Of a stretch of 64,000 nt of DNA, positions 4,309 through 61,099 are shown piece after piece. The position numbers and the translations under genes were made by a program. The stretch's first letter is position 1. Every line of letters begins with the position of its first letter. This stretch comes from Ceratothoa steindachneri (Eukaryota; Arthropoda; Malacostraca; Isopoda; Cymothoidae), in assembly GCA_963969495.1 (NCBI GenBank), contig OZ018331.1, positions 147,728,387 through 147,792,386 of the forward strand, written 5' to 3'. The notes below the pieces were generated by a model. It saw only the letters and a list, made by a program, of their open reading frames with translations. It was not told the DNA's origin and did no database searches.

Positions 4309-4310
4309 TA

Positions 4311-5604: not shown

Positions 5605-5606
5605 TA

Positions 5607-7430: not shown

Positions 7431-7432
7431 GG

Positions 7433-7630: not shown

Positions 7631-7639
7631 ACCAGACCA

Positions 7640-9880: not shown

Positions 9881-9973
9881 TTACACTAATGTAGGCTGCG
9901 GCTATACGCTTATGAAAAAGTAGGTACAAAAATAAACTTTAATATATACACAATAAATAGATTAAATGAAATA

Positions 9974-10237: not shown

Positions 10238-10260
10238 ATACTAATAGTGGTCAGGGAATT

Positions 10261-16215: not shown

Positions 16216-16224
16216 TATAAAAAA
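16216..16224 (+). promoter_or_regulatory. TATA box
   Basis: tataaaaaa lies 51 bases before the ATG at 16267, leaving room for a start site near 16246-16255 and a very short 5' leader. Compact TATA promoters of this kind are common on arthropod secreted-protease genes. Confidence 0.5.
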
Positions 16225-16266
16225 CTCGGTGCAAAGCTCTTGTGCCCAAGCTTCACTACGGCAAAA

Positions 16267-16333
16267 ATGGCCAGAATTACGATAGTGGTTTTTACATTGG
16301 TAATTATTGGTGGAATCGGAATCTGTGGAAGTG
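16267..16333 (+). CDS. Signal-peptide first exon, probably of the S1 protease
   Basis: ATG in good context (aaaATGG) opens 22 codons, MARITIVVFTLVIIGGIGIC and then GS. This is a textbook secretory signal: one Arg, a hydrophobic core, then small residues. It ends at a strong splice donor (G|GTAAGA at 16334). The exon ends one base into a codon. The protease exon at 30444 starts with the last two bases of a codon, so the two can join in frame to give Glu at the junction. A TATA box sits 51 bases upstream. The assignment to the protease is inference: the intron would be 14.1 kb, further exons may lie between, or this may begin another gene. Confidence 0.5.
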
Positions 16334-16714
16334 GTAAGATTATCCTAAACTACGTTGATTATTTTACCTATTTTCTATGGTGGAACAATAAATTTAGATG
16401 TAAAACGTGATTAATTTAATTTACAGTCCTTTTACCTAGGTATTACGAAATGTCACCTCGGTTGTGGCTTATGCATAACTTGATTTATCACCACATGCAG
16501 CTTATGGAACAAAATCAATGTTTTTTTTCATAAATAATTTAAGTTTAACGATAATTAAAGTGTCGTCGAACGGTTTAATTTAGCCCCTAATTTCCGATAT
16601 TCCAAAATATTTCATCTAATAAACTTTTCTCTCGCACACAAATCGCTCAAGTTCTCTACCCAGCGATTTTGGCCGGACTTCAGGCGATTTCTTTTTGGCA
16701 AAGCGGTTTTATGC

Positions 16715-16900
16715 TAGGTTAGGTTATGTTGTTTTATGTTGTGTTTTCATGTTTTGTTATGTTATGTTATCTCATGTTTTGTTATGTTGTTTTAGGTTAT
16801 TTTAGGTTATGTTATGTCACGTGGTTTTATGTTGTGTATGTTATATTGTCATGCTGTTTTATAGTATGTGGTGTTATGTTGTTTATGTTATGTAGGTAGG
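16715..16900. repeat. Degenerate TTATG/TTTTATG pentamer tract
   Basis: Imperfect runs of gttatgtt, gttttatg and ttaggtta cover about 185 bases. They abut the tail side of the SINE at 16895-17325 and resemble the (TTATG)n tail of the CR1 element at 13441. Confidence 0.7.
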
Positions 16901-17325
16901 TAGATAACGCCATTCGTCCTCGCATCGTGGACGCCATCCCTAGACCGGATAATGAAATGCATATAAAGATCAAAATGACGATCACTGGTGAGCGCGAAGA
17001 TAGCAGGGGCTGGTCTTCCAATGGGAAGCATTCGTGACCCCAGAGGGTGAGGGCACCCGTTCCGCGTCAAGGGTCTGTGGATACGAGTGCCCCCACGATG
17101 AGCCCCAGAGGAGAAACGAAATATCTCGTGCTGTGAAGACAAGAAGGGTGAGACAGCGGTCATGCGATTGGTTGTGCGTGTTGACCTACCTACTCACCCG
17201 GGGGAGGGGATCAGCGTATGAGCCAATAGCCTGCCAATTCGTGACGCCGCTGAGAGTTATGTTTCCGCCCAGGTTGGGATCGAACCCGCGCCTCGGCGCT
17301 AGAAATCCAACGCCGGAAACACTAG
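16895..17325 (-). mobile_element. tRNA-derived SINE, copy 1
   Basis: On the minus strand it starts with a pol III B-box-like gggttcgatcccaacctggg (about 17270-17290). It ends with the body gatcgtcattttgatcttta and catttcattatccgg (16938-16985). The same body occurs at 20890-20960 and 31198-31245. With its tRNA-like head it is a SINE. It is antisense to the putative host gene. Confidence 0.7.
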
Positions 17326-17344
17326 GTTAGTAAGAGCTCCTGTT

Positions 17345-17580
17345 ATGGGTTATTAGGTTAGGTTAGGTTAGGTATGGTTCGGTTCGATTTGGTTTGGGTT
17401 GGCTTAGTTTGATTTGGTTTGGTTTGGTTTGGTTGGTTGTGTTGTTTTATTAGTTTGGTTTGGTTTGTTTGATTTGGTTTGGTTTGGTTGGTTTGTTTAG
17501 TTGGTTTGGTTTGTTTTTGTTTCTTTTGGTATGGTTAGGTTAGGTTAGATTGTGTCGTGTTTGGTTAGATCAGGTTAGAA
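17345..17580. repeat. TTAGG-like and TTTGG-like simple repeat
   Basis: A short array of about three exact ttagg units (17350-17370) passes into about 200 bases of drifting ggttt/ggttag sequence. TTAGG is the arthropod telomere unit, but the array is too short and mixed to be a telomere. Confidence 0.75.
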
Positions 17581-17895
17581 TTAGAATCTTATACTTGTTC
17601 GGGGTCACATAATCCACTTCTCTCAAATGATTGTCAAAGTTCATTAAGGGAATAATCAAACGTGAGCATCTTTTTGCGTCTTATTCTTTTTATTGGTAAT
17701 GTAGCCATCTTTAATCACCAAGCACACGCACCTACCTTTATTGCTGAGGTTAGGAAAGCTTTGGAGAGTTACGCGCTCACCTGTGCCAACCGCCCCAAGG
17801 AGTCTCCTCCTTCTTTACAGCCCCATTTCTAATAATTATGGCAGAGATGTCCAAGTAGTTTTACGTTGCTTACTCAATATTATTAATACTAATAA

Positions 17896-18096
17896 CCAGG
17901 CAACGGCTTCTCGGCTGTCGGGGGGAGCTTGCGCTTCGCTACTAAGATCAAAATTTAAAATAAAAAAAAGCAGCCATGGTTAAAATTTTATAAATTTTCT
18001 GAACTTCACCAATTACAATCATTTTAAAAAGGAACTATAAACTAAATTTCCCCCCTTTCAAAATATCACGTTGCTAAAATATAGAGTTATAGATAA
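17896..18096 (+). repeat. GAT-tailed interspersed repeat, copy a (5' part)
   Basis: It starts ccaggcaacggcttc, continues through gcttgcgcttcgctacta and gcagccatggttaaa, and reaches ttgctaaaatatagagtta. It lacks the 3' half and the GAT tail seen in copies at 19885, 23598 and 36238. Confidence 0.75.
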
Positions 18097-18479
18097 CACT
18101 AGGGCAACAAATTTGACTTTTTGTTTGTTACAGACATGTGAATAAGTGTTTCTAATTAGTTCAAGGGCGCTGAATCCGAATTTGAAAACCAAAATTCTCT
18201 ATCACGTCTATATTTTGTGTAATGATCACCCCCCCTCCCTTTTCGCTATTTATTCCGATTAATAAATAATTTTTTTTTTTGTATTTTTTTAATTTTAAAC
18301 CAAAAATATTTTAAAAGTGGGGGACCTTCCTTCTTTATTCTGGCTTAGGACAGACAGTGTACATCAATGGCGAAGTAAACCGCCCCCCCCCCTTCCCTCC
18401 CAAGTTATGAAGATTTTATTGTCTTGATTAAGGTTTTTATGCACTTAAAGTTTAAAGAAATTTTGTTGTAGCCTTCTCG

Positions 18480-19385
18480 TTTTTCTTTTTTGAGACATCA
18501 AAGTTTGTTTTTGTAAAGACCAGCAATAATCCCCCATCATATTTGGATTAATTTGCCTTGGTACCTCGTCTCCTTAACCAAAATTTGTTGATGAAAACGT
18601 TCACCATATTCATCACTAACCGCTCACAGATTTTCAGGAAAGAAATCGAGATGAGAATGCAGAAAATGCATTTTAAGTGTCATTCTACACCCCATCTTTT
18701 CATAGGCTTCAATAATATTGTTTACTATTTCTCGGTAATTTGAAGATTTAAAATTGCCGAGAAAGTTTTCAGCGACTTCCACAAAGGATGTCCAAGCTTT
18801 GTGTTCCTTTTCATTGAGGCACAAAGTGAAGGAATCATCAGAAACAACTCTGCGAATTTGCGGTCCAGTGAAAACTCCAGCTTCTATTTTTGCATCAGTT
18901 AATGACCCTTTGAATTTGTTTTTGAAATATTAAAAGCTTTCACTCCTTTGATCCATACCCTTTACAAAATTTTTCATTAATACTAATTTAATGTGAAGAG
19001 GTGGAAGATGAACTTTTTTGGATCTACTAGAGCATCATGCTTAACATTATGTTTGTGAAAAATATATTCTTCTCTGGCTGGTCATTCTCGCTTTCTATAT
19101 TGATTTGAGGACTCACACCATATCATGAGAACAACAAATGGCATTGCCTTCCTCTTCCTATTTAATCAAGCTGTCAACATTGCGTTACACTGCGTGCAGC
19201 CTATATATATATATGAGTGGCCCAATCTTTATCCTGGTCCCCTACTTTGCATCCAAAATATTATATGTAGGCTTGCTTCGTCGTTACTGCTGTTATATTT
19301 TTCTCCCTTGACCCACTGGTGTGAATTGCCCACAAATATAACAAAATATGTTGGGGCTGTTTACACATCCGCGTCTAGAACTTGA
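18480..19385 (-). pseudogene. Relic of a repeated, uncharacterised arthropod gene family
   Basis: Minus-strand peptides in order are CVNSPNIFCYICGQFTPV (about 19330-19375), EEEGNAICCSHDMV (about 19125), KKVHLPPLHIKLVLMKNFV (about 18965-19020), KIEAGVFTGPQIRRVVSDD (about 18840-18890), then AWTSFVEVAENFLGNFKSSN and MHFLHSHLDFFPENL (18624-18810), and AVSDEYGERFHQQI (about 18580-18620). I recognise this order, especially LPPLHIKLxLMKNF and HLDFFPENLGAVSDExGERFHQ, from high-copy uncharacterised arthropod proteins, probably transposon-derived. Several stops and frame changes make this copy dead. No terminal repeats were found. Confidence 0.65.
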
Positions 19386-19619
19386 AGACATGAAAATATT
19401 TCAAATACTTAACTTGAGCAAGCAAACGATACACAATGTGAGATCCTTATCATAAGGTTATTATCAGAGCAAAACTTTGGTAAACATATTATCTTCTTTA
19501 CCAGTTATCAGTAGCAGAAAAGTTATCACAAATAAGTATGTATTAATCTGAAAATCTGAAAAAATCTGAAAAACTCAGTAATTAGAATTCAATGATATTT
19601 GAGCTTCAATATAGTCTAC

Positions 19620-19700
19620 TTTATATATATTAAAAATGTTAATATATATTAAATATATATATTATTTATTTTTTATATATTATATATATTAAATATATTA
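19620..19700. repeat. AT microsatellite-like tract
   Basis: Imperfect tatata/ttaaata tract next to copy b of the GAT-tailed repeat. Confidence 0.7.
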
Positions 19701-19884
19701 AAAATTGCATATTGGTACAATATTGAGCAAAAGTGTGAAATGGCTTGAAAAGGAAAATTCAAATTACACAAAAACTAGACGTGATATGCAAATTCTAAAG
19801 ACAGATTTGTAATCAGCGCCTTAAAATCATCTAGAATCACCTATTTTCTGCTATGTGACAAAAATAGTGTTAAACAGTGTAATT

Positions 19885-20365
19885 AATCATCATCATCAGC
19901 ATCATCATCACTAACTCTAATACTTAAGAAGGGGATTTTTTTGAGTATTTGAATAATAACTTCATCTTAGTTTGGTTATGACTTATGTTTTTTTATCAAA
20001 GTTATTTCTAATAATTCTTTTATAATATTAAAAAGCAAAATGGTGAAGTTCAGAAATAAATATAAGTATCAAAATCTTGTGATTTTTTAAAAACCCCCAA
20101 ATTACAAATGGTGAAGTTCAGAAAATTTACTTTTATATATTTTCTTCTCTTCTATAAATCTATATTTTAGCAACGTGATATTTTGAAAAAGGGGGAATTT
20201 AGTTTAGAGTTCCTTGTTAAAATTATTATAATTGGCGAAGTTGAGAAAATTTCTAAAAATTTAACCATGGCTGCTTTTTTTTTATAGATTTTAAATTTGA
20301 ATCTTAGTAGCGAAGTGCAAGTTACCTCCGTAAGGAGGAGAGTGGCGAAGCCATTGCCTGATAGA
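19885..20365 (-). repeat. GAT-tailed interspersed repeat, copy b
   Basis: A full-length copy on the minus strand. It begins at gccattgcctg (20350-20360 on the plus strand) with the hairpin cctccgtaaggagg (20325-20338), and ends in the trinucleotide tail (atcatcatc, 19888-19912). It shares over 400 bases of body with copies c, d and e. Confidence 0.85.
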
Positions 20366-20524
20366 TTAATTATTTATACAAAAGTTTCTTTCCTCAGTTG
20401 CCATTCTGTCAAAGTGATTAATTACTTCGTAATTTTGAAAGGACGCCAGCGCTGCTAAAATATTTAATTATGAATAAGACCCTGAAAAACACCTGCGTAT
20501 TTTCTTTTGCGTCATTCTTCCAAG

Positions 20525-20990
20525 AAGATCTTCCGAACACCTGTGTGATGCAGGTGTTGGTCTGTCAACGTCAGGGTACCGGGTTCGATCCCGGCATGAG
20601 CGGACTCAAACGGCAGCGCACTTAAGGAGATCTGGCTACCAATTGTTGGGTAGAGTTTACACTTCTAATTACACACATAGCCAATTACAACACTGCTTTC
20701 TTACCTCTCCTACCTCCGCAACACAACACACAAACACTCTCTGTTCCAAGGAATCCTGCCGATGGGTATCTATATCCACGTACCTAGGACGTGGAACATA
20801 TCCCTCCTCCCCCGAGGTGATGAAGGCTTCCACCCGAACGCTGTTTGGTGTCAAAACATAATACTTCCTGGCACCTCAACGATGACCGGCTTTTGGTGCC
20901 GTTAGACTCATCAGTGATTGTCATACTAAACTTTATATCTATTTCTTTATCTGGTCGGGATCCGCCTGGACAAAAGCAGGTCACCTAACT
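20525..20990 (+). mobile_element. tRNA-derived SINE, copy 2
   Basis: The head has a tRNA-like A region (tggtctgtcaacg) and a B box (gggttcgatcccggc, about 20580-20595). Shared middle text is tagccaattacaacac (20679-20694), and the shared body is cagtgattgtcatactaaac (about 20912). It matches copies 1 and 3 in the same order, so it is the same SINE family. Confidence 0.75.
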
Positions 20991-22029
20991 ACTACTTCTG
21001 GTTTGATGTGGTTTGGCATCAACGCTTTTTGTTAAATACCGAATTCTCATATCTCGTTTCCCATGACCTTTTGATCACTTCGCTGCGGTGTTAGTTCACC
21101 TGTGCTCATTATTATTATAAGCATAGGTGAGTTTGTAAAGTGCCCCTCTTTGTGACGTGGAGAGGTTGCTGAGTAGGGTGTTTAGCACGTTTTTTTATTC
21201 TTCCACATTTAACGTTTTCAACCCGGGTTTTACTTGAGTTTCGCCACTACGCACCCAAAATAAATTCGAATGTCGCACACGTAGCTGAATATCAATTGTT
21301 TTCCATTTGGTTTGGGAAGGTTTGAATAAACGCCCCTTATACAATAATCAAGTTTAAATAGTATTGTTACTTTTAACTTTACGTGTTGTTTTAAACTGTT
21401 AATGTTCTTCCTGATAAGTTCTTTCGTAAGTCCTCTCGTCCTTTCATTGTTGTACAGAGAGCAAAATGTCCTGGGTAGTTTGAAAGTTTACTTTATTTTT
21501 TTCCTACCTATAAAAAATACACCTTTTTTTAATCTGGATACCTTAAATATTCTCATACTCTTTGTTGACGTTGGATAATTATAACATTCGGATAATCTAA
21601 GTCATTTGGATACACTTTTGAGTGTAGATACATACAACATTCGGATACTCATTGTTGTCACTAAACTTCACGAACTAAAGCAACTTTAGAGGACAAAGTA
21701 TAACATCATTGGCCTGAGCGAAGAAGAAAAAGAGAAGGGGCGATGAAATAGGAAACTGGTCCGATGCTCTCCTCTAAGGATAGAAACGACCCTCATAGTA
21801 ATAGTGTCGGATTCTTAATACACCTTAGCCCTTTTCATAATCGACTTTATAGATACAGTAATCAAACTAGTAATCAAAATATCAAAAACGCATCCCCTAT
21901 AAATTATGTATAATAGTTTACATACCTACTTCTTTCTCAGATGACGAAGTTGAGTACTTCTATGTAGGGCTATTCATGAATTTATATAAAGATCAACGTA
22001 CAAATGCTCCTGAATGCTTAAAAAAAATT
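20991..22029. other. Spacer within putative intron 1
   Basis: No gene or repeat family recognised in about 1 kb of AT-rich sequence. Confidence 0.5.
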
Positions 22030-22031
22030 TA

Positions 22032-23539
22032 CAGTAAGGTCCAAAACTAGAGAACAAAAGAGCAAAAACTCATAAAAATACTTTTTTAATTTCCATTAAA
22101 ATTGTACAGAATATTTGTTTAAAATTTGCGTTTGATAGTGTTCAAGTCTCATTTCATAGAACAACACTTAAAAAAGTTATAAGAAAAATAATGTGTAGCT
22201 GAAGACAGTATGCGTGAAGTACTAGAGAACGTTAAATATAAATGTTGCCCCAACCAGAAAGAAACCTAAGTATTTTATAAGCAATTGAACAAAATAATAA
22301 GCAGGACTTCGCTAATTTGTTGCATTGCTCGAGCGTGAATTTATTCTATTCTTATTCCAACTCATTCGTCGTTTTTTGAGCCCTAATCTTGACGCCGATT
22401 ATCATCAATAGGTTTTATATCGGGTTTCAATCACTACTCTCCGCAGGTCAGTTCATCACGTCAATATTTTTAGCACCCGAGAACTGGTTCACCGTCTTTA
22501 CTGTGTGGTACGGAACAATGTTCTGCATGAAACCGGCTCACGTACTCTAAATGTTCGGAGAACGGAGGTATTCACATATTCCTGAAGCAGATTCTTGTGT
22601 ACCACAGCATTTGTTTTGCTATATAAACGGACGAATGGGCAGACTACAGCGCTTGAGAACGTTCTACACCATAACGTTGCCACTTTCAAATTTAACCGGG
22701 TATTCTCGTGCATGTGATATTTAATCTTTCACTTGTACGACGTCATACATATTGCTTTCCATCCTATAGGAGGAAGTTAAATTATTTTTTTGTTGCTGAA
22801 AAACACTTTCCCACTCTTCAGCACTCTACACGACACACTCAATAGCAACTAACCGATTTTTTTTCTTTTTAATTATGAGTGGTTTCTTAGCAGGAGAACG
22901 TGCCTTGAGTCCCACCTCCTTCAAGGGACGTGATACAACCTAGCTAGACACGTACTGGTTCAGGTTTTTGGCTACTTGACTTGAAATACCAGCTGCTGCC
23001 TTAAATCGGTCCATCGACATCCGTTGCATCTTGCGATATTTTCGGGGGGGGGGGGGAGAGGGCGACCGGTTTTGTTCTTCGATTCCTCAGGACCATGTAT
23101 CTTCGTGGGGGTTCTTAGTGTAAGTGTAGTCGCACCTGTTCACCATTATCATGGCTCAAAATGTGAGATCCTGTCATTCCTTCAATCTTCCTTGGACATC
23201 CTGCTTTCTGAAGGATTGGTTGACCTCGTCTTGCCATCATAATGAATGAGTGATGCCTTCAGTGTCAGTCTACAATGCATGTGGGAAAGTGTTGTCATAC
23301 ATAAGTTACGAATTTTTACACTTAAAATGAGAATTCTTAGTTATAGTTCTCTAGCTGTGGACACATTCTTTCTTCCATTACACATTACCTTCCTCATTCA
23401 CATTCTTCAATATTGTATGAAATGAATCTTGCAGAGGCAATTTCAACTAATATCTAGTGCAATTTTTATGGAAATTAAAGGAATATATTCAAGAAAATGT
23501 AGATTTGGGTATTTTGTTTTGTAGTTTTGGACGGTAATG
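22032..23539 (-). mobile_element. Tc1-like transposon
   Basis: 1508 bp with imperfect inverted ends (cagtaaggtccaaaacta on the left and cattaccgtccaaaacta as the complement of the right), each next to TA (22030-22031 and 23540-23541). The length is typical for Tc1. It contains a decayed minus-strand transposase. A run of 14-15 G (23043-23057) interrupts it. Confidence 0.85.
22350..23245 (-). pseudogene. Tc1 transposase, heavily decayed
   Basis: Minus-strand fragments in order are FESGNVMV (GSVMVWG-like block, about 22680), QNIVPYHTVKTVNQFSGAKN (about 22480-22540; the catalytic N/D-x-x-P-H block), then a PAESSD*NPI*NL block (about 22400-22440), where Trp and Leu codons have become stops. That last block corresponds to the third catalytic region of Tc1 (PDLNPIENLW). 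The N-terminal DNA-binding part is barely readable. It is non-functional. Confidence 0.75.
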
Positions 23540-23597
23540 TACAGATTAAAAAGTGAGATAGAAAGTTAATGAGAAATAATAAAACTTTACAGAAATG

Positions 23598-24014
23598 TTA
23601 TCATCATCATCATTAACTATATTTTAAACAGGGAATTATTTTCAGTATTTGAATAATAATTTCATCTTAGTTTGGTTATGACTTATGTTTTTTATCAAAG
23701 TTATTTCTAATAATTCTTTTATAATATTAAAAAACAAAATGGTGAAGTTCAGAAATAAATATAAGTATCGAAATTCGGTGAATTTTAAAAACCCAAAGAA
23801 TTAGAAATGGTGAAGTTCAGAAAATTTATTTTTGTAAATCTTCTATAACTCTATATTTTAGCGAGGTGATATTTTGAAAGGGGGGAAATTTAGTTTAAAA
23901 TTCCTTGTTAAAATTATTATAATTGGCAAAGTTCAGAAAATTTATAATAATTTAACCATGGCTGCTTTTTTTCAGATTTTAAATTTTAATTTTAGTAGCG
24001 AAGCCATTGCCTGC
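23598..24014 (-). repeat. GAT-tailed interspersed repeat, copy c
   Basis: Minus-strand copy with tail atcatcatcatc (23601-23612), shared body (ttggttatgacttatgtttt; ggtgaagttcagaaa twice) and end gcgaagccattgcctg. It lies only about 60 bases from the Tc1 right end. Confidence 0.85.
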
Positions 24015-24464
24015 GTCAGTCACATGAAGATATAGTAATGAAATAAATGAGTTCTACACTTTTACTATCAATTTTTAAAATGAGATTAAGTCTTTTGATT
24101 AATATTGCTTCTAACCTTTGAAGGGAGGTGTCAGATTTGCGCGAAACAGGGTGTCCCGAAAATTATTGAGCAGTAAAATAGGACGCGGCAGTTCTTGCGG
24201 GAACAGATATTGAATATTTCTTCTTGCCTTGAGATATGTGCGAACATTTTTGAAACCTATCCTAAAATTGTTGCTACGTGCTATATTCTATGCCCGACGC
24301 TAAGTGGACGAGCTTGAAAGTCCCAAACCAGTATGATCCTGGCGAGACTATATATGTCCAGTGCATAGTAATCTTTGGGACATCCTGAAGTATGAGTTTT
24401 AAAAATTCTATCATCTACTGAGATTTAAACTGGATAATATGATCTAGTTGATGTATAACTCGTC

Positions 24465-24780
24465 CGTTGTACACCTTTTAGCATTCTCGTTATCCTAGTG
24501 GGCCTCTCAGAGTTCTCGCTATCCTAGTGGATCTTTCATTGCTCTCGCTATCCTACTGAATCTATCAGGTTTTTGGCTATTCTAGTGAATCTATTAGAGC
24601 TCTTGATATATTAGTGGATCTTTCAGAGTTCTCGTTATCCTAGTAGATCTCTCAAATCTCTGGGTGTCCTCGGGGATCTCTTGGAGCGCTCGCTATCCTA
24701 GTGGATGTCTCAGAGATCTCCTTATTAGCTGAATCACTTCGACCTCTCGCTATCCTAGTGGATCTCTCAGATCTCTAAAA
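24465..24780. repeat. Degenerate minisatellite, about 27-29 bp unit
   Basis: About ten imperfect units of the form ctcgctatcctagtggatct with ctcagag at the join. Units differ by several substitutions each, so the array is old. Confidence 0.85.
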
Positions 24781-24829
24781 ATGCCCACTCTCTTATAGAA
24801 TATCTTAGAGAATATATTACTAGTTTGGC

Positions 24830-25257
24830 AACTAGTTCGACTTCTAGTTCTTAAGCTATTTCCGCAAATAATTTGACAACTCGTCAGAGAGGGAATTTGG
24901 AAAATATTTCGGCAGCTAGTTCGGCGACTAGTTTAACAGATAGTTCTTCAAATACATACCTTAGCAAATTGGCTGACAGTTAGTTTGGCAACTACTTCGC
25001 CAAATAGTTCGGCAAATAGTTCAACAGCTACTTCGGCAACTATCTCGACAGCTATTTCGAGAGTTAATCTCGGCAAATAGTTCAACGACTACTTAGGCAA
25101 ATAATTCGGTAAATGTTTGACAGCTAACTCGACAACTAGTTCTGCAGCTAGTTAGATAGCTAGTTCTGCAAATAGTTTGACAACTGTTTCGGAAAATAAT
25201 TTCACAGCTAGTTCGGCAGCTAGGTCGGAAGCCAGTTCGGCAGCTAGTTGTTAGATG
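24830..25257 (+). repeat. Degenerate 12-bp minisatellite reading as Ser/Ala/Thr repeats
   Basis: A dodecamer close to agttcggcaact recurs about 35 times with drift. In one frame the better stretches read SSANSSTATSATISTAIS and FTASSAARSEASSAASC before a stop at 25255. Several in-frame stops break it. It may be a decayed Ser/Thr-rich coding repeat or simply a non-coding minisatellite whose period is a multiple of three. I cannot tell which. Confidence 0.7.
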
Positions 25258-25516
25258 AGCTCAAATAATTGTATGGAATTAACGACTCTGGATCTCAACT
25301 TAGTCTCCAGTTTACAACAGGAACCCGAATAAACATACACATGTGGCTCTTCTTTGCTGTTGGTTTTGAGTTTTTTACTTAAAGTATTTTTGGAGCTGGT
25401 AAAGATTAGCAACTTACACTCGTTTCTGATTACTAACCTTTCAAGAAAGATTTTCGTACGAATGTTTTTATTTGAATATTTTTAGCGGTTTGACCGTTTG
25501 TTAGTTTATATGATTA

Positions 25517-25850
25517 CCAGGCAATGGCTTCGCCACTCCCTCCTACGTGGGGAGCTTGCGCTTCGCTACTAGAAATAGAATTTAAAATCTAAAAATAGCA
25601 GCCATGGTTTAATTTTTCTAAATTTTCTGAACTTTAAAATTTGTAATTCTTTGGGTTTTAAAAAATTCAACAAATTTCGATACTTATATTTATTTCTGAA
25701 CTTCACCATTTTGTTTTTTTGATATTATAAAAGAATTATTAGAAATAACTTTGATAAAAAAAAACATAAGTCATACTCAAACTAAGATGAAATTATTATT
25801 CAAATACTAAAAAAATCTCCTTAAATTATAGTTAGTGACAAGTTATTGAA
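25517..25850 (+). repeat. GAT-tailed interspersed repeat, copy d
   Basis: Starts ccaggcaatggcttcgccac and runs through gcagccatggtt and gaacttcaccattttg to gttagtgacaag. The GAT tail has been lost or never extended. Confidence 0.85.
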
Positions 25851-26930
25851 TTTTCTTAACTCGGAAATTTGAAGATCTAATCTTTACCTCGAAACTTATT
25901 TTTTTAAATTTTTAACAGCTCTGTATTTTCCGATAAAATTATTTGTGATTGAATGTGATGTCAATTAATTTGTTGGGAAAACACTAATTGTTTTATCAAT
26001 GCCATTTATAGTTATTTATTCAGATGCCTTTAGATTAGGAAGGAGACAATAGCTCTTATCTTTTGCGACATTAGAAATCGACGGAAATTTGGAATAAGAC
26101 GGACGCAAGCGGGTTTTTTTTTATGTCCCGTCAAACTCGCGCTACGATGCTAAATAGTTAAAGGTCTCTACCTCTCTTTTGGAATAACAACATTATTTTG
26201 GCGATTTTTTGCCGTTAATTTGTTAAATTACCAAACCTAAACATGTTTAAATAACCTACTATCCCTAACACTCCACATCGTAGTTAAATTAGCGTCTTAC
26301 CTGAATGTGATGTTATCTCTTGTGACCAATTTCTCTAATATTACCTTTAAAAACAACAACCTTTAATTTGCTATTTTGAAACGATCGAACGTAACTTTTG
26401 CCGTCTCGTGCTATTTAAAGATAGCGTTGCAAAAGGATGATTTTTTCATTTTATAAACTTTCTGATTAGTTAAGCAAATGCAAACAACATAATAATTATA
26501 TAAAACTAATAAATCAAAATTAACCTCATAAACAAGTCCAATAGTTCAATTATGAAAATAATAATAAAACTTAACTGTAAACAATCGGAACTTAGCCATG
26601 TTAAAGAATTCTTGCGTTGCAAAACAGGATCAAATTATTGACTTTTCGTGGATTGTAGATTATGCGTTAGAGCATTGGCCTGGACATAGAAGAGCGCTCG
26701 ATGATATAGGTTTAAAGCCCACCATTTTTTTATTTTCATTAAAAGGGTAAATAGTTAGATTATTTTATCCCGTTCGTTTTCTCTTTGCCTGTTTTATCTT
26801 TGTTAGGTCCTTACGATGACGAAAACGCTTGTAAATCTGTCTTTCCCTATTCACATGGGTTATTTCGCATCTAATATGTCGCGCGTGGATTGAGATTTCC
26901 CGTTTAGATCGATATACCTACAGGATGCGC
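25851..26930. other. Spacer with one degenerate tRNA-like segment
   Basis: At 26650-26730 the text ttatgcgttagagcattggc and aggtttaaagcccacca resembles the A box and B box of a tRNA gene about 50 bases apart. The acceptor stem is not convincing, so it is at best a tRNA pseudogene or SINE head. No coding was recognised elsewhere. Confidence 0.45.
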
Positions 26931-27308
26931 CACAAAAAAACAGGAAATTTTAGATTACATTATGTATTTTACACAACTACAATTAATTAGCATATAACTT
27001 TTACAAATGGCCCTCAAAGTCCAGATCTCAACGTAATGGATTTTACCATGTGGGGCTTACTGTTACATCAACTCCAATTGCAGATGAGAGAGGTCACAGA
27101 CATACAAACCTTGCAAACTCTGTTGATGGAAGCCTGGAACCATTTCCTGCTTGAAATGATCAAAAGGGGGACTGAAAGTTGGCTAGACTGTCTACGGAAA
27201 GCATTTTGAATACCACATCTAACATTTGTGTTTTAGTTCTGTTTTAACAATGTTTCTGTTAATTAAGTAAACTGTATCAAATTTCTTGTTATTTTGTGGG
27301 GCACCCTG
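26931..27308 (+). mobile_element. Internally deleted Tc1/mariner-superfamily element
   Basis: 378 bp with inverted ends (caggatgcgccaca on the left, cagggtgccccaca as the complement of the right), flanked by TA at 26929-26930 and 27309-27310. It retains only the transposase C-terminus. It needs a transposase supplied elsewhere. Confidence 0.85.
27019..27211 (+). pseudogene. Transposase C-terminal remnant
   Basis: SPDLNVMDFTMWGLLLHQL, then an amphipathic stretch and SWLDCLRKAF followed by a stop (27209). SPDLNxMDFxMWG contains the third catalytic Asp of IS630-Tc1-mariner transposases. The first two acidic residues were lost with the internal deletion. Confidence 0.8.
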
Positions 27309-27889
27309 TAGTATAGATATTTTTTTCGGATCATCGAGACCATAAATCTGGTACTTGTTGTCTGCCTTAAAAAAATATTTAAAAAATGGACAGAAAAGTG
27401 TGAAGGAAGAAGCAGTTTCACGGGAAAAAAATATAAAATTCTTGATTTAGGACAGTTTTCGAAAATGATTGGCTTCCATCATCCCTTTTGGGAATTGTAT
27501 TTTAAATTTTCTTTCTTGAATTCATTGTTGGAAAAGGAAAATCGGGAATATACACAAAATTTATTCTGTTTATACACAAACGATCAATTGAAGGTCAGAG
27601 CTGCGTCTGAAGATGTTGATATTATCTCAATTATATAGACATAGATCGATAGCTTTAACAATAACATTATGGGGGAGAATTGAACTTATTTTGCTATAAT
27701 TTTAATAGCAATAGGACTATAGAAAAGGCAGAAGCGTTATTTTTTGATATATAAAGCTCTCTAGTTCAATAATTAAATAGATAAATATTACGTCTTACAT
27801 TTTAGCTATCAAGTAGGTAATAAATAATAATAAAAATCAAGACAAACGGAAAAATACAATATTATTATTTTTGAAATAGCCTCGTCCTT

Positions 27890-28240
27890 AACTAAACAAA
27901 GATTAAGGTTTATATGCGATGATATAGATTTAACTTTGACTAATGATGCGATGTTAGTAGAAAGAATACATGTATGCGAAACACTTGGAAACAGCGATCA
28001 CAACATAATTTGATTTAATATAAATAATTCAAAAAATGTCCATGAGAGTTTTCAACTCATAGATGACTTTAAGTCTTTTAATTATGATATTTTCCAGTCC
28101 GCTTTAAATTTTTGAATTGGGGGGAAATTTAAGCGATGTAGACCCCCCCCTCCCCTCGGAAAAAGTACAATGGATTTCAGAGTTCGTTTTCACTATATAT
28201 AACGAAATAAGGTGGTTTAACATAGAGCTTCTAATAGGTA
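27890..28240 (+). pseudogene. CR1-type endonuclease fragment
   Basis: LTLTNDAMLVERIHVCETLG followed by NSDHNII matches the Ser-Asp-His end of the CR1 endonuclease. Compare TLGNSDHQIVRF in the element at 10261-11049. After it, further downstream ORF2-like text occurs (EIRWFNIELLIGKIRCLG). Truncated on both sides and interrupted by stops. Confidence 0.7.
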
Positions 28241-30279
28241 AAATAAGGTGCCTTGGATAAATATTCAGATTCTTCTGACCTTACACCACCTCATCTTTAT
28301 TTTGGGGTGTGCTGAAGAATTCAGTCTATGGTGAAATTTTCATTTTTCTTCCAAATAAAAGCTAATTTCATTTTCCGTTATGTCAATATTTGAAAGTAGG
28401 CCAGTTATCGAATCTTTTGCGTAATCAACCGAATTCGATCGAATTATCGTAAAAAAATTAAAACAAAACAGTACAATGTTATTTCTAATTCACTCACTAT
28501 ATAAACGAATTTCCTATAAATATATTATGTAAAATTATAAGATTTGCCCAAGACTCGAAGTTTGGTAGTAGGGCAAAATGTCATAGTTAGTATGAAAACT
28601 TGCAAAAAGAATTGATGAACTCAAGAGATTTGTCTAGCAGATTAAGGAATTCTTACTCTTACCCTAACCTAACCCTCTTATTTATTTATTGTAAGCAGTT
28701 GTAGCGCCCTTTTAAACCCTTTGTTAGATCTATACAAAAGTGGAAAATAAAAGACGAAAATAAAAGACGAAAATAAAAGTGAAAAGGACGATCCAAGAAA
28801 ACGCACGGGTTTGAAGGGCGTATCACTCCTCAAGGTTTCAGTTGTAGTGGAGCCATTACCTCCGTTACACCATCTGCACCCCTGTGGTTTTGAGTATGCG
28901 ATGAAATCCTGATCTTTATATTCACGAAAATACATTACAGTAAGGAAACGTGGCCAGTGTCGAGCGACGAAATAAATTCCTGAACTTAGAAATAGATCGC
29001 ACGAAGACACATACTAAGGCACCTATATTTAGTTTAACTCCGATATTGGCACTAGGGCTGATGCCAATAAAACTTTATACAGTAGGATCTATTTGCTTTT
29101 GTTTTGATTTACTACCTACTGGGAGGGGACTTTGGGAGAGGGGGAGCGAGGCTAGATTATGTCGAGCACGAGGAGGGAAAAGTTTGGTGACTTGAAGATC
29201 ACTCACTTTTTAGTTCCCGAGCGATGTCCGCAACAGCCTTGACTCTTTGGCTAACAGGTTGTTGTGTAATTCGTAAACTTGGCGACTGAAGTTAGTTAGT
29301 CAGTGTGGTGAAGTAGAGGCTGATCACGTAGGAGAGGAATGTGATTCCTGCCAAAATGTAGTCTCGCCGGAAGGATGATTATCCTCTCGCGATGTGGGTT
29401 TGTGCGGTCGGTGAACTCGGGATAGATAAATGAACAGCGTAATCTTTGCCACTGCCTTAAGGGGAAACTTGCGTTGGTGACGAGGCAAGTGTATCTATCT
29501 CTCAGCAATCCGGTAGTAATTAGAAATTAAGATGGATTAGATACTGCGAATGGTCGCTAATATTGGGTTGCGACCAAAACTGGACTACAACCTTTTTCGT
29601 GGACGTTCGTTTGTGCGAAATTCATTTTAGGGGGAAAACATTAAGCAATAAAAATTGCGATAAGATCATTTTGAGCGAAAATACTATGAAAAGTAAATTG
29701 AGGGAAATTTAAGAGCGAAAATTATGAAATAACAAATTACATATTAATTTAACATGAGGATATATTTAGTTAAATTGAAATAACACACGTAGGCGTTAAC
29801 TTATTGCGACGGATAGCTCCATAGAAACAAAATAAAAGTGAAAGCACGTTTAAAATAAATTATAATAAATTTAGTTATAACAAAGTCGTAAAAAGAAAAA
29901 TCATTAAGAAGAGAAAAGAAACCAATACAACCATCGATAAATTTTCACTTAGTTAAGAAAGATAGATGGGAAAGAGCTGAGGAAAAAAATATAATTAGAG
30001 CAAACAAGAATAATAAACAACAGGATGGCGCAGGCTATGAAGCAGACCTTGTCAACCTATTGGGGGCCTGCAGAGGGTATTCTACACTTCCAGAACACTT
30101 TTTAACAAACAACACCTAAATCCCCCCAGATGTCAATAAATAGCAAATAGAAAGCACTCGCAGTGCGCCCACCTCCGCCACAGTAAGAAAAGGCCATATT
30201 TCGCATTATTATAGAAAATGAATAAGTATTCCAGAATCCGCATCAGGATCTGCACCCCCCTTCCCCACTCAATTCTTTC
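28241..30279. other. Spacer, putative intron 1, AT- to mixed composition
   Basis: No exon was recognised. About 28608-28665 resembles one arm of the fold-back at 34448-34581 (agattaaggaattcttac). Around 28900-28920, ctgatctttatattc recalls the SINE body. 28745-28795 repeats aaataaaagacgaaaat. Confidence 0.45.
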
Positions 30280-30385
30280 TTGACCTCTAACTTCCGCCTC
30301 CATAAAATATCATCGAAATCTGTCCATAACCTTTTGAGATATTTTGTACACAACAACCATAATCACATAAACTCCGCCAAATCTG
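30280..30385. repeat. Possible LINE/SINE 3' tail remnant
   Basis: catcgaaatctgtccataac followed by cttttgagatattttg and an ACA-rich end resembles the 3' tails widespread in invertebrate retroposons. It lies just before the protease exon. Low confidence. Confidence 0.3.
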
Positions 30386-30443
30386 TTGAACCAGGTAATA
30401 AATTTGAAGACGCGCCTCGCTGACGTCATTCTATCTCTTCCAG

Positions 30444-30718
30444 AAGCGGCAAAACGGCGGCGAAAGAGCAATAAAAATGGCCTTATCGACCTCTATCGAT
30501 CATTCGAAGATAAGGAGCCGACCTGTCGGTGTGGGGAAAATAAGTATAAGGAACCAAGCAAGACCTCCAGGATTATCGGCGGTTTCGCTTCGAAACCGGG
30601 CAAGTATCCGTGGATGGCCGCACTTTGCCTCAATGGATCGTGCCAAACTGATTCCCTGCTTTGCGGGGGCTCGCTTATCAATGACCGATACGTCTTGACC
30701 ACCGCCCATTGCATACAG
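30444..30718 (+). CDS. S1 serine protease, propeptide and His57 exon
   Basis: Bounded by ctatctcttccag and CAG|GTAAGG. It encodes a basic propeptide (KRRRKSNKNG), then CRCG, whose Cys probably bridges to the catalytic domain, and the activation site SKTSR|IIGG (cleavage before 30572). The catalytic domain begins IIGGFASKPGKYPWMAAL, and VLTTAHC holds catalytic His57 (codon 30707-30709). The exon starts two bases from a codon end, in phase with the signal-peptide exon at 16267, and ends in phase 0. An ATG at 30386 is in frame, but the acceptor and the lack of any signal there argue that it is not the start. Confidence 0.88.
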
Positions 30719-31911
30719 GTAAGGGGGCTATCTGTGGTCAGGAACGGAGGGAGGTAAAGCTGAGATTTAGGTTGTGGGTTGACCACGCCTCGATACCGGG
30801 CTCGAGTCCCAGTGTCATCGGATACAAGATATTTCGGCCCGTGTAGGGAGGTGCTACTAATTAGGCAGTGCGTCGAGTCTGAGTATACACGTAGATAGCC
30901 CCCCGCCCCACCGCGTGCGTTGCAACACGCGTAGCCAATTACAACACCGCCGTTTCTTGTGTCTCCATTCGCACACACAACACATTACTCTTCCATCTCC
31001 AATCCTCTCTTAAGTGGGTATCATATCCACACTCCTCCTACCTGGAATGGATGGCTCTCCCTTAGGCCGTGAAGAGGTCCCTTGCTCCCTGGTTTGGTGA
31101 CGAAGAAGTGCCCCACCCTTAACCTTCACCTTCTTCCCCGAAGAGCCGACCCCCCCTGTTCCTTCCCCAATGAAGCCGAACCTTGGTACTTTGAGTTAGC
31201 ATTGATTGTCATTCTGATCTTTATGCGAATTTCATCATCTGGTCTCCTCTTCGCTCAATCAAAGCTGTTTTTGGAAGGGGTGAGAGGGAGGGGGGAGTAG
31301 GGGGGTAAGTAAAGTGATAACATGAGAGGAGATGAAAATGTGTGGGAAAGAAATTAGCCTGAGGGGTTTAAAGAGGTGACTACTCGGGGCCGTCGGGGCC
31401 CGTGAGGTGAGCAGCTCTCCTTAGCTAATTTATTTTAATCCTTCACATCATTCTTACTATAATTAGTGGCAGGTGTAGTAGTAATAGTATTAATAATGAT
31501 GATACTTATATTAGTAGTAGTAGTGAAGTAAAGAAAGTGGTGAAATAAGAAGTGAAAATGCGTGGAAGACAGATGAAAATCCTGCCGCAAGTATTGGGGC
31601 CGGGAGGGCACGCAACTAACTCTTAAGAAAGTAGGGAAAATGAAGTGAAAATGCGTGGAAGGCCTACAACCGCAGATCCTACTACGATCTTTGTTGATAG
31701 GCATCTGCTGGCGATGGGGCGGGGAGGGCACGCACGCATTCAGATGACAGCTGTAACATGGCGGTCCGTGCTACACCTGACAACTTCTAGGGGTACCTTT
31801 TAAAATAAGCCCCCTTTCCCGACTCGGGGCAATTGTATGGGCAATGGCATATTTGTCAAATGCAGGGTAACACAGGGGTGGTTTTAATCCCGGGGGTCTT
31901 TTTGTTAACAG
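30719..31911 (+). other. Protease intron with a SINE
   Basis: Canonical GTAAGG...tttgttaacAG intron. It contains SINE copy 3 (about 30765-31255). The remainder, 31256-31911, shows no gene; some purine-rich sequence with gtagtagtag-type simple repeats lies at 31460-31530. Confidence 0.7.
30765..31255 (+). mobile_element. tRNA-derived SINE, copy 3
   Basis: B-box-like gggctcgagtcccagtgtca (about 30798), shared middle tagccaattacaacac (30931-30946), and shared body attgattgtcattctgatct and catcatctggtc (31198-31245). The order matches copies 1 and 2. Confidence 0.72.
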
Positions 31912-32085
31912 GGGCTGAAGCAGGGGGATTTCAAAGTGGTCCTGGGGGAGAACCGGATCTTTCCTGGTGTCGTCTTAGGACCAGGTTCGGTCCACGGGGT
32001 GAAGAAGCTGATTCCACACCCGAAGTATGACCCCAGGGTTTACTCAAACAACATCGGCCTCGTTAAACTCAAAAGGAAAGTTCAG
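31912..32085 (+). CDS. S1 serine protease, middle exon with Asn at position 102
   Basis: Exactly 58 codons, phase 0 at both ends (acceptor gttaacAG, donor CAG|GTAAGG). It reads GDFKVVLGENRIFP, KKLIPHPKYDPRVYSNNIG and LVKLKRKVQ. FKVVLGE, IPHPKY and LVKL are standard S1 landmarks. The catalytic acid normally occurs in D-I-A-L. Here the codon at 32050-32052 is AAC, giving N-N-I-G-L-V-K-L, so Asp102 is Asn. In well-studied trypsins this change severely lowers activity at neutral pH, so the product may be a non-catalytic homologue. Confidence 0.85.
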
Positions 32086-32650
32086 GTAAGGCAGTGAAGG
32101 TATGGAGCGACCGAGACCCCGGCCCCGGTTCCGGCTAACCCCAGCCGCGGTCAAATATTAGTGGTCCAAGCCCCGGTCCCGGTCCCGCCCCCTGCCCATG
32201 CCCCAGCCCCGAGCTCGGCGTAATTACGACCCCGCTCGCTCTATAGCCGAGTACAGAGCGATGGGGGCCTAGAACCCGGCCAAATCACCACACCCGGTCG
32301 GTCTATAAGTGAAGGTCTGAAAGAGCAAGGGAGGTGTAGAAAATGAGGGTGTGCAAGGAATTGAAGGCAAAGTGTGGGATGACTTGAAAGTGGGAGAGTA
32401 AGGAATGGTGGCGTGGAAGAGAAATAAACATTAATACAAAAAAAGTTCGAATTAGGCACAATTTGGGGTTTCCTACCCAAATGGGGTTGGCGCGTATCAA
32501 CCCCACTCATTACGTATTGCGCTTTGTAGAAACAAAGTGTCCAGGTTTGCGGTTTTCAAGGCAAGCGGCACATATCCGGGTTTAGTCGTCTTTAAAGACA
32601 CGCGCTGGAAGTCGGTAGGGGTATTTTGAGGGAACAGGAGTGGTATCCTC

Positions 32651-32758
32651 AATATTTACATGTATACCTTCGAGAAGGAATATTTACATGTATACCTTCG
32701 AGAAGGAATATTTACATGTATACCTTCGAGAAGGAATATTTACATGTATACCTTCGAC
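32651..32758. repeat. 28-bp tandem repeat, four units
   Basis: Nearly identical units starting at 32651, 32679, 32707 and 32735 (aatatttacatgtatacctt then cgagaagg). Very low divergence implies recent expansion. Confidence 0.95.
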
Positions 32759-32875
32759 ATATAAATACTCACTTTATCCGTTGAATTGCACTCCGAGATC
32801 TGGGCCCTACCTCGTCTTAAGGCGGCTCACTCTGACCACCAGAAACAATTACAACTCGGAGTAGTGAAACAGAGC

Positions 32876-33055
32876 AAAGGCGAGCAAAGCAGAGCAAAGT
32901 AAATGGTAAAACAGAGTAAATAGAGTAAAGGTGAGCAAAGCAGAACGAAGTAAACAGAGTAAACAGTAAAAGAGAGTAAATAGAGTAAAGGTGAGTAAAG
33001 CAGAACGAAGTAAACAGAGTAAACAGTAAAAGAGGGTAAATAGAGTAGAGTCGAG
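32876..33055. repeat. 60-bp tandem repeat
   Basis: Units at 32931-32990 and 32991-33050 are nearly identical (gtgagcaaagcagaacgaag ...), with a partial unit before them. Internally the unit is built from agtaaacagagtaaa-like subrepeats. Confidence 0.95.
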
Positions 33056-33625
33056 CGAAGCCACCGAGATGCGTTTTCCCAGAAAACGAATGAGTTGACG
33101 TTTTCAGATCCTCGAAGCGTTCGGATTTTAAAGCGAAAAAGCCCCTCCAAATTGAGGTAAAAACTGACCCCAAGCCCCACACCCACTCTCAAAGGTGAAG
33201 GGGGTGTCGTAAGGATCGGGTCAAGAGAAGGGGGTAGACCCCAGGACCCACTTACAGGTCCAGGGAACCATAAACCTCAGTGCAGTTCCGTGACCACGTT
33301 TGAAAAACAATGTCATAAAGCTGAGATAAAAACGAAGAGAGAAGTGTTAAAATAGACAGATAAATAGGGTAGACAGAAGAAAGGAGGGTAGAAGAATAAG
33401 GAAAGAGGAGTGAGAGGGAATCTATTATGGTTCTGAGATTTAAAAGGCGTCAGAAGCATCCTGAGAATTCCGTGCCCATTTGCCCTAATGCCCACAGGTT
33501 AATTGGCGGTTATATGTATTACACACAGTTTCAGTTCCTCCATCTTCAACACTTTTTTAGAGACGTTCATTTACATGCTTTCTAGCTTCGTGCCCTCGTT
33601 GGTTTTATTTTATCAGTAAAAAAAA

Positions 33626-33651
33626 CACACAACAACAACAACAACAACAAC
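33626..33651. repeat. (CAA)n microsatellite
   Basis: caacaacaacaacaacaaca, about eight units. Confidence 0.9.
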
Positions 33652-33864
33652 CATTTTACCCTTAGGCAACGGAGCGAAAATACGCCTTAGACGATGGTGG
33701 AGGGCGGAAAGTCCTTTTGCTGCCTATTTGGGCATCTGAATGGCTTTTTTTACACTTCACATCAAGTCTTTCCCACTTCACACTCCACCCTGACATTTGC
33801 GGTGGAAATGTGTAGTTCTCTTCACTCCTCATCTTCTAATGTAGCTTCCGCCCATTCTTTGATA

Positions 33865-34018
33865 CCACTCGATTCGTTCCGACTCATCTCGACTCCACTC
33901 AACCTAACTGAACCTAACGTAACTCAATTCGGCTCAACGCAACACAATTTAATCTAATTCGACCCTACTCAAGTCAACTCAATTCCACTCAGCTCAACTC
34001 CACTCCGATTCGACTTAG
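33865..34018. repeat. Degenerate pentamer/decamer tract
   Basis: Drifting ctcaactcaa, actgaaccta and gactccactc phrases over about 150 bases. Confidence 0.7.
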
Positions 34019-34082
34019 CAAAAAGGTGAGTCTAATAAGCGGTGTCAAGGGGAATGGCCTCTTAATGACTTTTTCCTCTCAG

Positions 34083-34220
34083 GTGACCGATAAAATCAAT
34101 CCCATCTGCTTGCCATCGGTAAGCCAGTGCTACATCGGGGCCACGGCCTACCTATCTGGATGGGGCGACACGACAGGAAGCGGTACATACCCGGGTATTC
34201 TCAATGAAGTACCATTTGAG
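34083..34220 (+). CDS. S1 serine protease, third catalytic-domain exon
   Basis: 46 codons in phase 0, acceptor ttcctctcAG and donor GAG|GTCAGT. It reads VTDKINPICLPS, then AYLSGWGDTTGSGTYPGIL and NEVPFE. INPICLP and SGWG are conserved S1 landmarks. It continues directly from the Asn102 exon and leads into the Ser195 exon. Confidence 0.88.
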
Positions 34221-34331
34221 GTCAGTACCATTTCACTAGCAAAAGTCAAATTGCATTTAAACTCGATGGATATAAACTGGAATCCTGCAATTTTTAAAAA
34301 GTGTCGTAAAAATCCAGCAGCTTGAAGAGAT

Positions 34332-34333
<2 letters not shown>

Positions 34334-34397
<64 letters not shown>
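34334..34397. repeat. (TA)n microsatellite
   Basis: About 64 bases of uninterrupted AT dinucleotide. Confidence 0.95.
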
Positions 34398-34399
<2 letters not shown>

Positions 34400-34447
34400 A
34401 AATTAATAATAACGTTCTAGTCAATGGGGTTAGCTACAGGTAATAAT

Positions 34448-34581
34448 AAGAATTCCTTAATCAGCTAGTGAAGTCTCTTGGAGTTCCTCAACCCTCTTCA
34501 GATTGCCTTGTCGTATTTGTAACGCTCCTGAAGAGGGTTGAGGAACTCCAAAGGACTTCATTAGTGGATTAAGGAATACTT
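34448..34581. repeat. Fold-back (long inverted repeat)
   Basis: Arms of about 54 bases (34448-34501 and 34528-34581) share aattccttaatc, gaagtc, and a perfect core ggagttcctcaaccctcttc, around a 26-base loop. A degenerate single arm occurs at 28608-28665. Confidence 0.9.
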
Positions 34582-34984
34582 ACTGAATACCCTTAGATAT
34601 AGACCAACGTTTCATCTTCTGGACACATCTTCTGGGCTAGAACATTAAAAATATAAAGATCAACTCGAATAACGACCCCACCCTTAAACTAATCATACCC
34701 ATTGTAGCTTACTTTCTCTCAAATGGGTCAATTTTGCTACTCAACTTGCCCCCCTTCCCCTCCCCTCTACTGTTGAATAGCGGTTTCACGCCTTTGACGT
34801 TGGCGGAGTCGCCATGGTAACCAACGGCGGTCGCATCCCCTGTCGACTAAATTAATTATTTTTTATCGTATTGTCACAAATGTAGTTAAAATATCCCTAA
34901 ATCCTTCCTAATCTATGGAGGGCGGGTGGATAAAGGGGTGAGGGGGGTCGAGTGGTCGCTAAGGTCCCCCCCCCCCTGTTTCAG

Positions 34985-35160
34985 GTGATCTCGAGGGAGG
35001 ATTGCCAAGCCGCTTACTCAATGTTTCCGGGCGCGATTGACAGGGCGATGATCTGCGGCTGGAGTCGCGACGCCAACGGGTGTGAGGGAGATTCCGGCGG
35101 TCCTCTCATGTTCAAGAATTCGTGCGGATTTTATGAACAGGTGGGGTGGATTGCGCGGCA
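34985..35160 (+). CDS. S1 serine protease, Ser195 exon
   Basis: Acceptor ctgtttcAG. It reads VISREDCQAAYSMFPGAIDR and AMICGWSRDANGCEGDSGGP. GDSGGP holds catalytic Ser195 (codon 35093-35095). The residue aligned with 189, which sets primary specificity, is Asn (35075-35077) and not the trypsin Asp. The end is uncertain: donors are possible at 35141 (CAG|GTGGGG, phase 0 like the other introns) or 35161 (CAG|GTATAC), or the frame simply runs to TAG at 35171 (VGWIARQVYS). The usual SWG...C and final W-I helix are not seen, so either a further exon exists or the protein is truncated. Confidence 0.82.
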
Positions 35161-35450
35161 GGTATACTCGTAGAGTGGAGTGTCTGGGCGCGATCTTGTG
35201 CAGTTAATTGAACTGGTCGTATATTTCAAATGTGGAGAAGGTCGAACGAGGGAAAAATTAAATTTCCCTAAAGATCAGAATGACAATCGAGGACGAAGGT
35301 GAGGGAAGAGAGGTAGTGGTGTAGTTTGTCATAGGTCGGTGAGCATTACAGCCCTCCATGGCCCAAGGGAGAGTCACTTCTTCCACTGTCAAGGGAGTAA
35401 GGACTGAAAATTGCATAGAAGAATATCAGATGGAAGAGCGATGTGTTGTG
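35161..35450 (-). repeat. Partial SINE-like segment
   Basis: ctaaagatcagaatgacaatcg (35269-35290) is the complement of the shared SINE body. gcccaagggagagtcact (35361-35378) matches the complement of a block in copy 3 (near 31060). Probably a decayed minus-strand copy. Confidence 0.45.
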
Positions 35451-35454
35451 GGGC

Positions 35455-35838
35455 GAAGAAATAAGAGAAAGAGTAAGGGAAAGTAGAAACGAAAGAGAGA
35501 AACTAAATGAAAAATGAAAAGGAGAAATGAGAAGTAGAAATGGAAGGAGAAGGTGAAGGTAAATGTAAAGCAAATGGAGAAGGAGAAGAAGAATAAGAAT
35601 GAGAATGATAAGAACGAGAAGGATAGGAAAGAGAAGAAGGATAAGAATAACGAGAAGAAGGATAAGGAAAACGGGAAGAAGGAGAACGAGAAGAAGAAAA
35701 GGGGGAAGAATGAGAGAATGAAAAAGAGGGAGAGAAAAAGAGCATAAGACATGAAATAAGAAAGGAGAAATAAATAAAAGAGACTAAGGAAAATAGAGGG
35801 AAAAAGAAAGAGAGAAAAAGAGAGAGAAAAAGAGAGAG

Positions 35839-35877
<39 letters not shown>

Positions 35878-35925
35878 AGAGAGAGAGAGAAAGAGAGAGA
35901 GAGTTAGGGAAAGAGAAAGAGAGAC
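35455..35925. repeat. Long polypurine tract with (GA)n core
   Basis: About 470 bases almost purely A/G on the plus strand, including a (GA)n run at 35840-35905, then a GT-rich end (35927-35980). Frames across it are Ser/Leu or Lys/Glu artefacts. Confidence 0.95.
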
Positions 35926-36237
35926 TCTGCGTGTGTGTGTATATGAACGTGTTTGTGTAAGTGAGTGTGTATGTTTAATGTTTAAGTGTGTCCAGGCTAC
36001 CACAGGGTGCATAACTTAAAGAATGAACGAGTTTTATTAAGGACTAGTCACGTGATAAATTACTTGCGAAAGGTTGTTGTTACTCGTTGAAAAGAAACCA
36101 GGTGATTAATTTACTGAATGGCCAAAATTCCGGTGATCAAAGAAGGTTAAAACATTTTCTTCATTTCTTTGCCAATGAGCGCTTTACTAATCATTACCAC
36201 TTAGATCTTAAGTAAGGCGACTTAAATTATAAAAACA

Positions 36238-58550: not shown

Positions 58551-58595
58551 GTGTCCCAGGACAGAACCTTGAGAAACACCGCTAGTAACGGGCAC

Positions 58596-61092: not shown

Positions 61093-61099
61093 ACATTTG

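Follow-up and report, generated by a model that had tools for sequence, protein, structure and literature searches.

An S1 protease-like gene in the window, the 64-kb stretch of DNA analysed here (C15:147728387-147792386), very probably begins some 14 kb upstream of its protease domain: the short signal-peptide exon at 16267-16333 is read, with a probability of about 0.93, as the first exon of a gene whose five other coding exons lie at 30444-37124. Apart from one interesting residue, Asn102, the locus is a gene of an ordinary kind that repeats appear to have lengthened. In the proposed scheme, the TATA promoter would drive a transcript with a short 5' leader, splicing out of the phase-1 intron 1 would join the signal peptide to the basic propeptide and protease domain, and the product would be a secreted zymogen of about 315 aa, cleaved at R65/I66IGG. 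Coordinates are collected in Table 1.

Table 1. Features of the window gene, its first intron and the other family members (window coordinates unless a contig is named)
Feature	Position	Strand	Remarks
TATA box TATAAAAA	16216-16223	+	51 bp 5' of ATG; read directly
Exon 1	16267-16333	+	22 predicted signal-peptide codons MARITIVVFTLVIIGGIGICGS plus one base; GTAAGA donor from 16334, phase 1
Intron 1	16334-30443	+	14,110 bp, phase 1
Repeat with inverted ends	17892-20363	.	arms 17962-18093 / 20151-20282; in intron 1
Partial copies of this repeat	near 23600-24004 and 25513-25838		in intron 1
Tandem arrays, 29-bp and 12/24-bp	24446-25257	.	in intron 1
Exon 2	30444-30718	+	basic propeptide, CxCG, activation site R/IIGG, His57
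Exon 3	31912-32085	+	holds position 102, here Asn (SNNIGL)
Exon 4	34083-34220	+	local S1 profile match
Exon 5	34985-35140	+	Ser195 (GDSGGP), Asn at 189; donor GTGGGG placed by homology with relatives
Exon 6, last coding exon, TGA stop	36987-37124	+	profile E 1.7e-7 and 5.7e-7
Polyadenylation signal AATAAA	37218-37223	+
Other cluster member	C15:147649576	-	genome search
Other cluster member	C15:147704884	+	genome search
Other cluster member	C15:147814872	-	genome search
Other cluster member	C15:147848278	-	genome search
Sixth family member (c6)	C6:78349804		61% identity to window gene across 50-aa query

Structure of the predicted gene

Direct reading of the sequence bore out the TATA box at 16216, the ATG at 16267 and the GTAAGA donor after 16333 that a sequence-only reading of this DNA had described. 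The start codon (16267-16269) has A at -3 and G at +4, and exon 1 encodes a predicted signal peptide with a best 9-residue mean hydropathy of 3.56, with matching exons in the relatives. The acceptor ending at 30443 is pyrimidine-rich and closes with CAG, and the exon at 30444 starts inside a codon, with its second and third bases, as had been noted; an in-frame splice from 16333 completes a G/AA junction codon for Glu, and the frame stays open. The protease frame is open 5' to 30371 and its first in-frame ATG, at 30614, falls inside the domain, so that no usable start lies in the protease exons themselves and an upstream first exon is needed; the protease had been said earlier to lack a secretion signal otherwise. 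The in-frame product that had been proposed, a secretion signal, a basic propeptide and an IIGG protease domain, likewise matches the present gene model.

The agreement in phase had been credited with a one-in-three chance of being accidental. This is not a fair figure, as phase-1 introns are favoured near signal peptides: an excess of them near signal-peptide cleavage sites is described for animals (PMC1626468), and long phase-1 introns are described as associated with signal peptides in human genes (PMC7259759). Phase agreement is therefore weaker evidence than that figure implies. The case for the proposed joining of 16333 to 30444 rests on the relatives.

With E values up to 5 accepted, a whole-domain S1 profile built from 150 listed homologs matched five protease exons of this gene and no other protease exon in the window. 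For the last exon, a profile of the C-terminal parts of 104 of 120 listed homologs was used, in which the next best match after exon 6 had an E value of 0.18, and the exon-6 boundary Q/IGI is identical to that of the cluster member g4. Since this is the last exon, the gene, starting at about 16216, extends as far as the AATAAA at 37218; the minimum span of 19 kb given earlier stands (about 21 kb), but the end placed at 35173 was wrong, as the stop at 35171-35173 sits in intron 5 and the real last exon lies beyond it. The six coding exons give a spliced product of 315 residues. Exon 5 has a weak donor, GTGGGG at 35141, and an in-frame alternative, CAG/GTATAC after 35161, would add 7 residues, for a product of 322 instead of 315. 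The coding frame is intact despite identities of only 33-39% to the aligned relatives, and a working gene is therefore favoured.

Exon layout in a duplicated protease family

A search of the genome (3.93 Gb in 529 contigs) with the exon-2 segment, a 50-aa query, gave at least 50 matches, among them four further S1 protease members within 200 kb on C15. Together with the window gene these make up a five-member S1 protease cluster, with genes in both orientations (G000 C15:147644500-147849700), and tblastn over 262 kb recovered five protease exons for every other cluster member (4/4), with order and strand matching. As part of the whole gene model, the window gene very probably belongs to this locally duplicated family. 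In the protease tree the six family genes, c6 included, group at 91/87 and the window gene joins g5/g6 at 92/73, both forks being under the 95/80 mark of the tree tool. The coding sequences of g5 and g6 differ at 0 of 921 nt, and g3 and g4 form an inverted near-identical pair (25 of 939 coding positions differ; dN 0.019, dS 0.058); because of these two pairs, the six genes count as four independent cases, the window gene included.

The two-part start, consisting of a TATA or TATA-like box, a signal exon with a phase-1 donor and a phase-1 acceptor before the propeptide, is also present in the five relatives, which supports the earlier assignment of the 16267 exon as the first exon of the protease. 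The signal exon measures 64-67 nt across the six genes and 64 nt in the five relatives, and the TATA box lies 51-61 bp from the ATG in the five cluster genes. The propeptide exons of the other four cluster proteases likewise begin in phase 1, and according to the gene models the intron positions and the phases 1,0,0,0,0 are common to five genes. The C6 gene, with phases 1,0,0,0 and an exon-5 donor, agrees up to exon 5, its last exon not being found in the stretch examined; its phase-1 signal exon is accompanied by a TATA-like TATATTAAA at -56 (distance counted by eye). All six genes also carry, in exon 2 after the activation site and before the His57 loop, a Cys-x4-Cys motif (C84/C89), a pattern matched in none of 203 listed homologs, and these cysteines possibly form an extra disulfide.

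Signal-exon scans and promoter comparison

A scan blind to proteases, which sought an ATG, a hydrophobic core and a good donor on both strands of 262,386 bp, with any TATA box lying within 150 bp, gave 17 candidates, 8 of them in phase 1. A TATA box accompanies seven of the 17, and five of these seven are in phase 1 (the three phase-1 candidates without TATA entered the count only). The five TATA-bearing phase-1 exons fall one per cluster protease, each upstream and on the strand of its protease, and no other exon of this kind was found in the 262,386 bp. In 20 dinucleotide shuffles there were no candidates in 16 and one candidate in four, a mean of 0.2 against the five real ones. Upstream of 14 more distant protease loci (1.5 kb each), a TATA box with a phase-1 signal exon was found in none, and a phase-1 signal exon without TATA in two (L008, L015).

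A relaxed scan of positions 1-30600 of the window gave 16 candidates on the + strand, with five phase-1 rows: the 16267 exon, one candidate within a LINE frame and, nested in a low-complexity array, three whose donor is poor (score 1.1). Five candidates came from the - strand, three of them in phase 1. On the + strand 5' of 30444, the 16267 exon is the sole phase-1 candidate with a TATA box. At the thresholds used there is thus no rival first exon, the finding that the sequence-only reading had named as one that would count against its proposal.

Sequence similarity points to g5 as the nearest relative of the start, and the same gene is nearest by the tree of the protease body. Against g5 the window promoter gave p 0.008 and the signal exon p 0.004 (500 shuffles; uncorrected, six pairs each), and the combined score of the two was reached by 1 of 5,000 shuffles; neither part matched g4 or c6 significantly. 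When the g5 start was slid along the 64-kb window, the 16267 site ranked first of 3,192 placements. Over 262 kb (13,110 placements) the window site scored 52 in the grid and 56 at best, and, g5/g6 aside, two places outscored it, at about 147869681 (65) and about 147651546 (57), so that the promoter match is supporting evidence and not unique to this site. No signal exon was found around 147869681. Used as a DNA query against the genome, the promoter and the signal exon matched only their own site.

Intron 1 and other elements

The five relatives have introns 1 of 958, 962, 962, 962 and 997 bp, and the 14-kb intron of the window gene is far beyond this range, which counts against the joining. 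The first intron had been called TE-filled, and its repeat-rich character is confirmed by a repeat with inverted ends, by tandem arrays and by its matches elsewhere in the 262 kb (counting those within the intron), which cover 4,455 of its 14,110 bp. The repeat at 17892-20363 is DNA-transposon-like by its shape; no transposase domain was found in it, and a Pfam search of three intron-1 frames (18624-18926 on the - strand, 27312-27635 on the +, 28678-29010 on the -) gave no match. The introns 1 of g4, g5 and c6 do not clearly resemble that of the window gene (best match with g5: 65 bp, 74%, E 6e-6), and for this reason a remnant of an ancestral 1-kb intron cannot be marked. The simplest account is that intron 1, once about 1 kb long, reached 14.1 kb through the insertion of repeats that left its splice sites in place.

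Other elements were observed in the window and the genome. LTR-retroelement-like frames at 3566-8610 include an aspartyl protease and an integrase zinc-binding domain, and a mariner-like frame (HTH_48, 4444-4872, perhaps extending to 5418) lies between them, which suggests a nested insertion in an LTR-retroelement-like element. Non-LTR retroelement frames occupy 9890-12900 and 57778-61107 on opposite strands, with endonuclease and reverse transcriptase at 10216-12358 (+) and a weak reverse transcriptase match at 58096-58578 (-). A long COX1-like match was found on a large contig (G000 C11:170834712-170836051) and another on C529; the C11 match is perhaps a mitochondrial insertion into the nuclear genome. 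The genome is perhaps, on weak grounds, that of an arthropod: many of the homologs come from arthropods, and on a COX1-bearing contig the codons AGA/AGG are compatible with Ser and ATA with Met, while M-ND2-COX1-COX2-K and an ATP6-like frame lie in succession. A tRNA-Ala that aragorn called on the minus strand between ND2 and COX1 departs from the usual arthropod order and speaks against this assignment.

Active site of the predicted product

The PF00089 (Trypsin) profile matched residues 66-264 at E 3.2e-43 in a version of the product without the last exon, and alignments show the R/IIGG activation site and the conserved cysteines. Identity to the listed homologs was at most 40% across most of the query, with 43% across under half of it. 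When 203 listed homologs were aligned with the product, 201 of them had Asp at position 102 and two had Asn; within the family this residue is Asn in the window gene, g5 and g6 and Asp in g3, g4 and c6. As regards the residues of a catalytically competent S1 protease, the window gene keeps His57 and Ser195 (GDSGGP) and lacks Asp102. In g5/g6, His57 is replaced by Ser and Ser195 by Phe which, along with Asn102, amounts to loss of the whole triad. The window gene also lacks Asp189, the residue of trypsin specificity for Arg/Lys, which is present in 137 of the 203 listed homologs and is here replaced by Asn.

The product is probably either a protease of weak or conditional activity or a non-enzymatic member of the serine protease homologs (SPH), a class defined by the absence of one or more triad residues, to which Asn102 would assign it. 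With Asn102 present and His57 and Ser195 kept, an altered-triad, putatively secreted S1 protease homolog is the best label. A more tentative idea, which we regard as somewhat doubtful, is that the family records a stepwise loss of the enzyme, from His-Asp-Ser in g3/g4 and c6 through His-Asn-Ser in the window gene to Ser-Asn-Phe in g5/g6, in which case the window gene might encode an Asn102 protease active only at high pH or a pseudo-protease with most of its active site.

Alternative explanations

The signal exon could be an orphan, left by a lost protease copy or belonging to another secreted gene, beside a broken protease that has lost its own first exon. The separation of 14 kb, where the five relatives have about 1 kb, speaks for such an arrangement, as does the frequency of phase-1 introns near signal peptides described in PMC1626468. 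The cluster, however, has one TATA box and phase-1 signal exon per protease, the whole-domain profile found no other protease exon in the window, and the signal exon and the protease body both indicate g5; the coding exons are also open, with splice sites present, despite the 33-39% identity of the relatives. We consider this explanation improbable. A coincidence, in which a random ATG with hydrophobic codons happens to have a TATA box and a donor, would be helped by the weakness of phase agreement by itself, but is the least credible of the alternatives given the excess of real exons over the shuffle mean and the same layout in the relatives.

Marginally less improbable than an orphan exon, and still unlikely, is an extra exon within intron 1, such as one for a CLIP domain, between the signal peptide and the propeptide. 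Many listed homologs carry CLIP domains, and a phase 1-1 exon would be compatible with an unchanged frame. No CLIP domain was found in the window, where the best match had an E value of 0.34 with a small local profile (four training sequences; about 40 control sequences matched); the two-part start, moreover, is already open in all six genes, and the length of the relatives' intron 1, about 1 kb, also argues against an added exon. The single gene with its first exon at 16267 is thus the preferred reading.

That reading illustrates how a gene model spanning 14 kb of repeats can be decided by comparing tandem copies within one genome, with no need for RNA evidence. In large genomes full of repeats, automatic annotation might be expected to drop distant first exons of this kind and to call the product non-secreted. 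The natural Asn102 series, in turn, makes it possible to test by what route the catalytic triad of a serine protease is lost.

Comparison with known systems

The predicted product resembles secreted S1A proteases (PF00089) in its predicted signal peptide, CxCG propeptide, R/IIGG activation site, His57, Ser195 and cysteines, and differs from them by Asn102 and the extra Cys-x4-Cys. CLIP domains are found in some SPHs but not in all. The window gene resembles SPHs in its missing Asp102 and in its place in a duplicated cluster with triad-less members, but differs in having kept His57 and Ser195, and no CLIP was found in the window with the small local profile. Of the 90 serine protease-like genes described for Nilaparvata lugens, 25 are missing triad residues, and some of these belong to duplicated groups (PMC4085338). 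A close counterpart of the active site is an engineered trypsin, D102N, whose triad change is identical to that of the window gene. The engineered protein is reportedly the rat enzyme. Its kcat is given as 10^4-fold lower, and at pH 10.2 the enzyme comes close to 6% of wild type (PMC12018205). The change in the window gene differs from it in being natural, in occurring with Asn189 as well and in lying in another sequence background.
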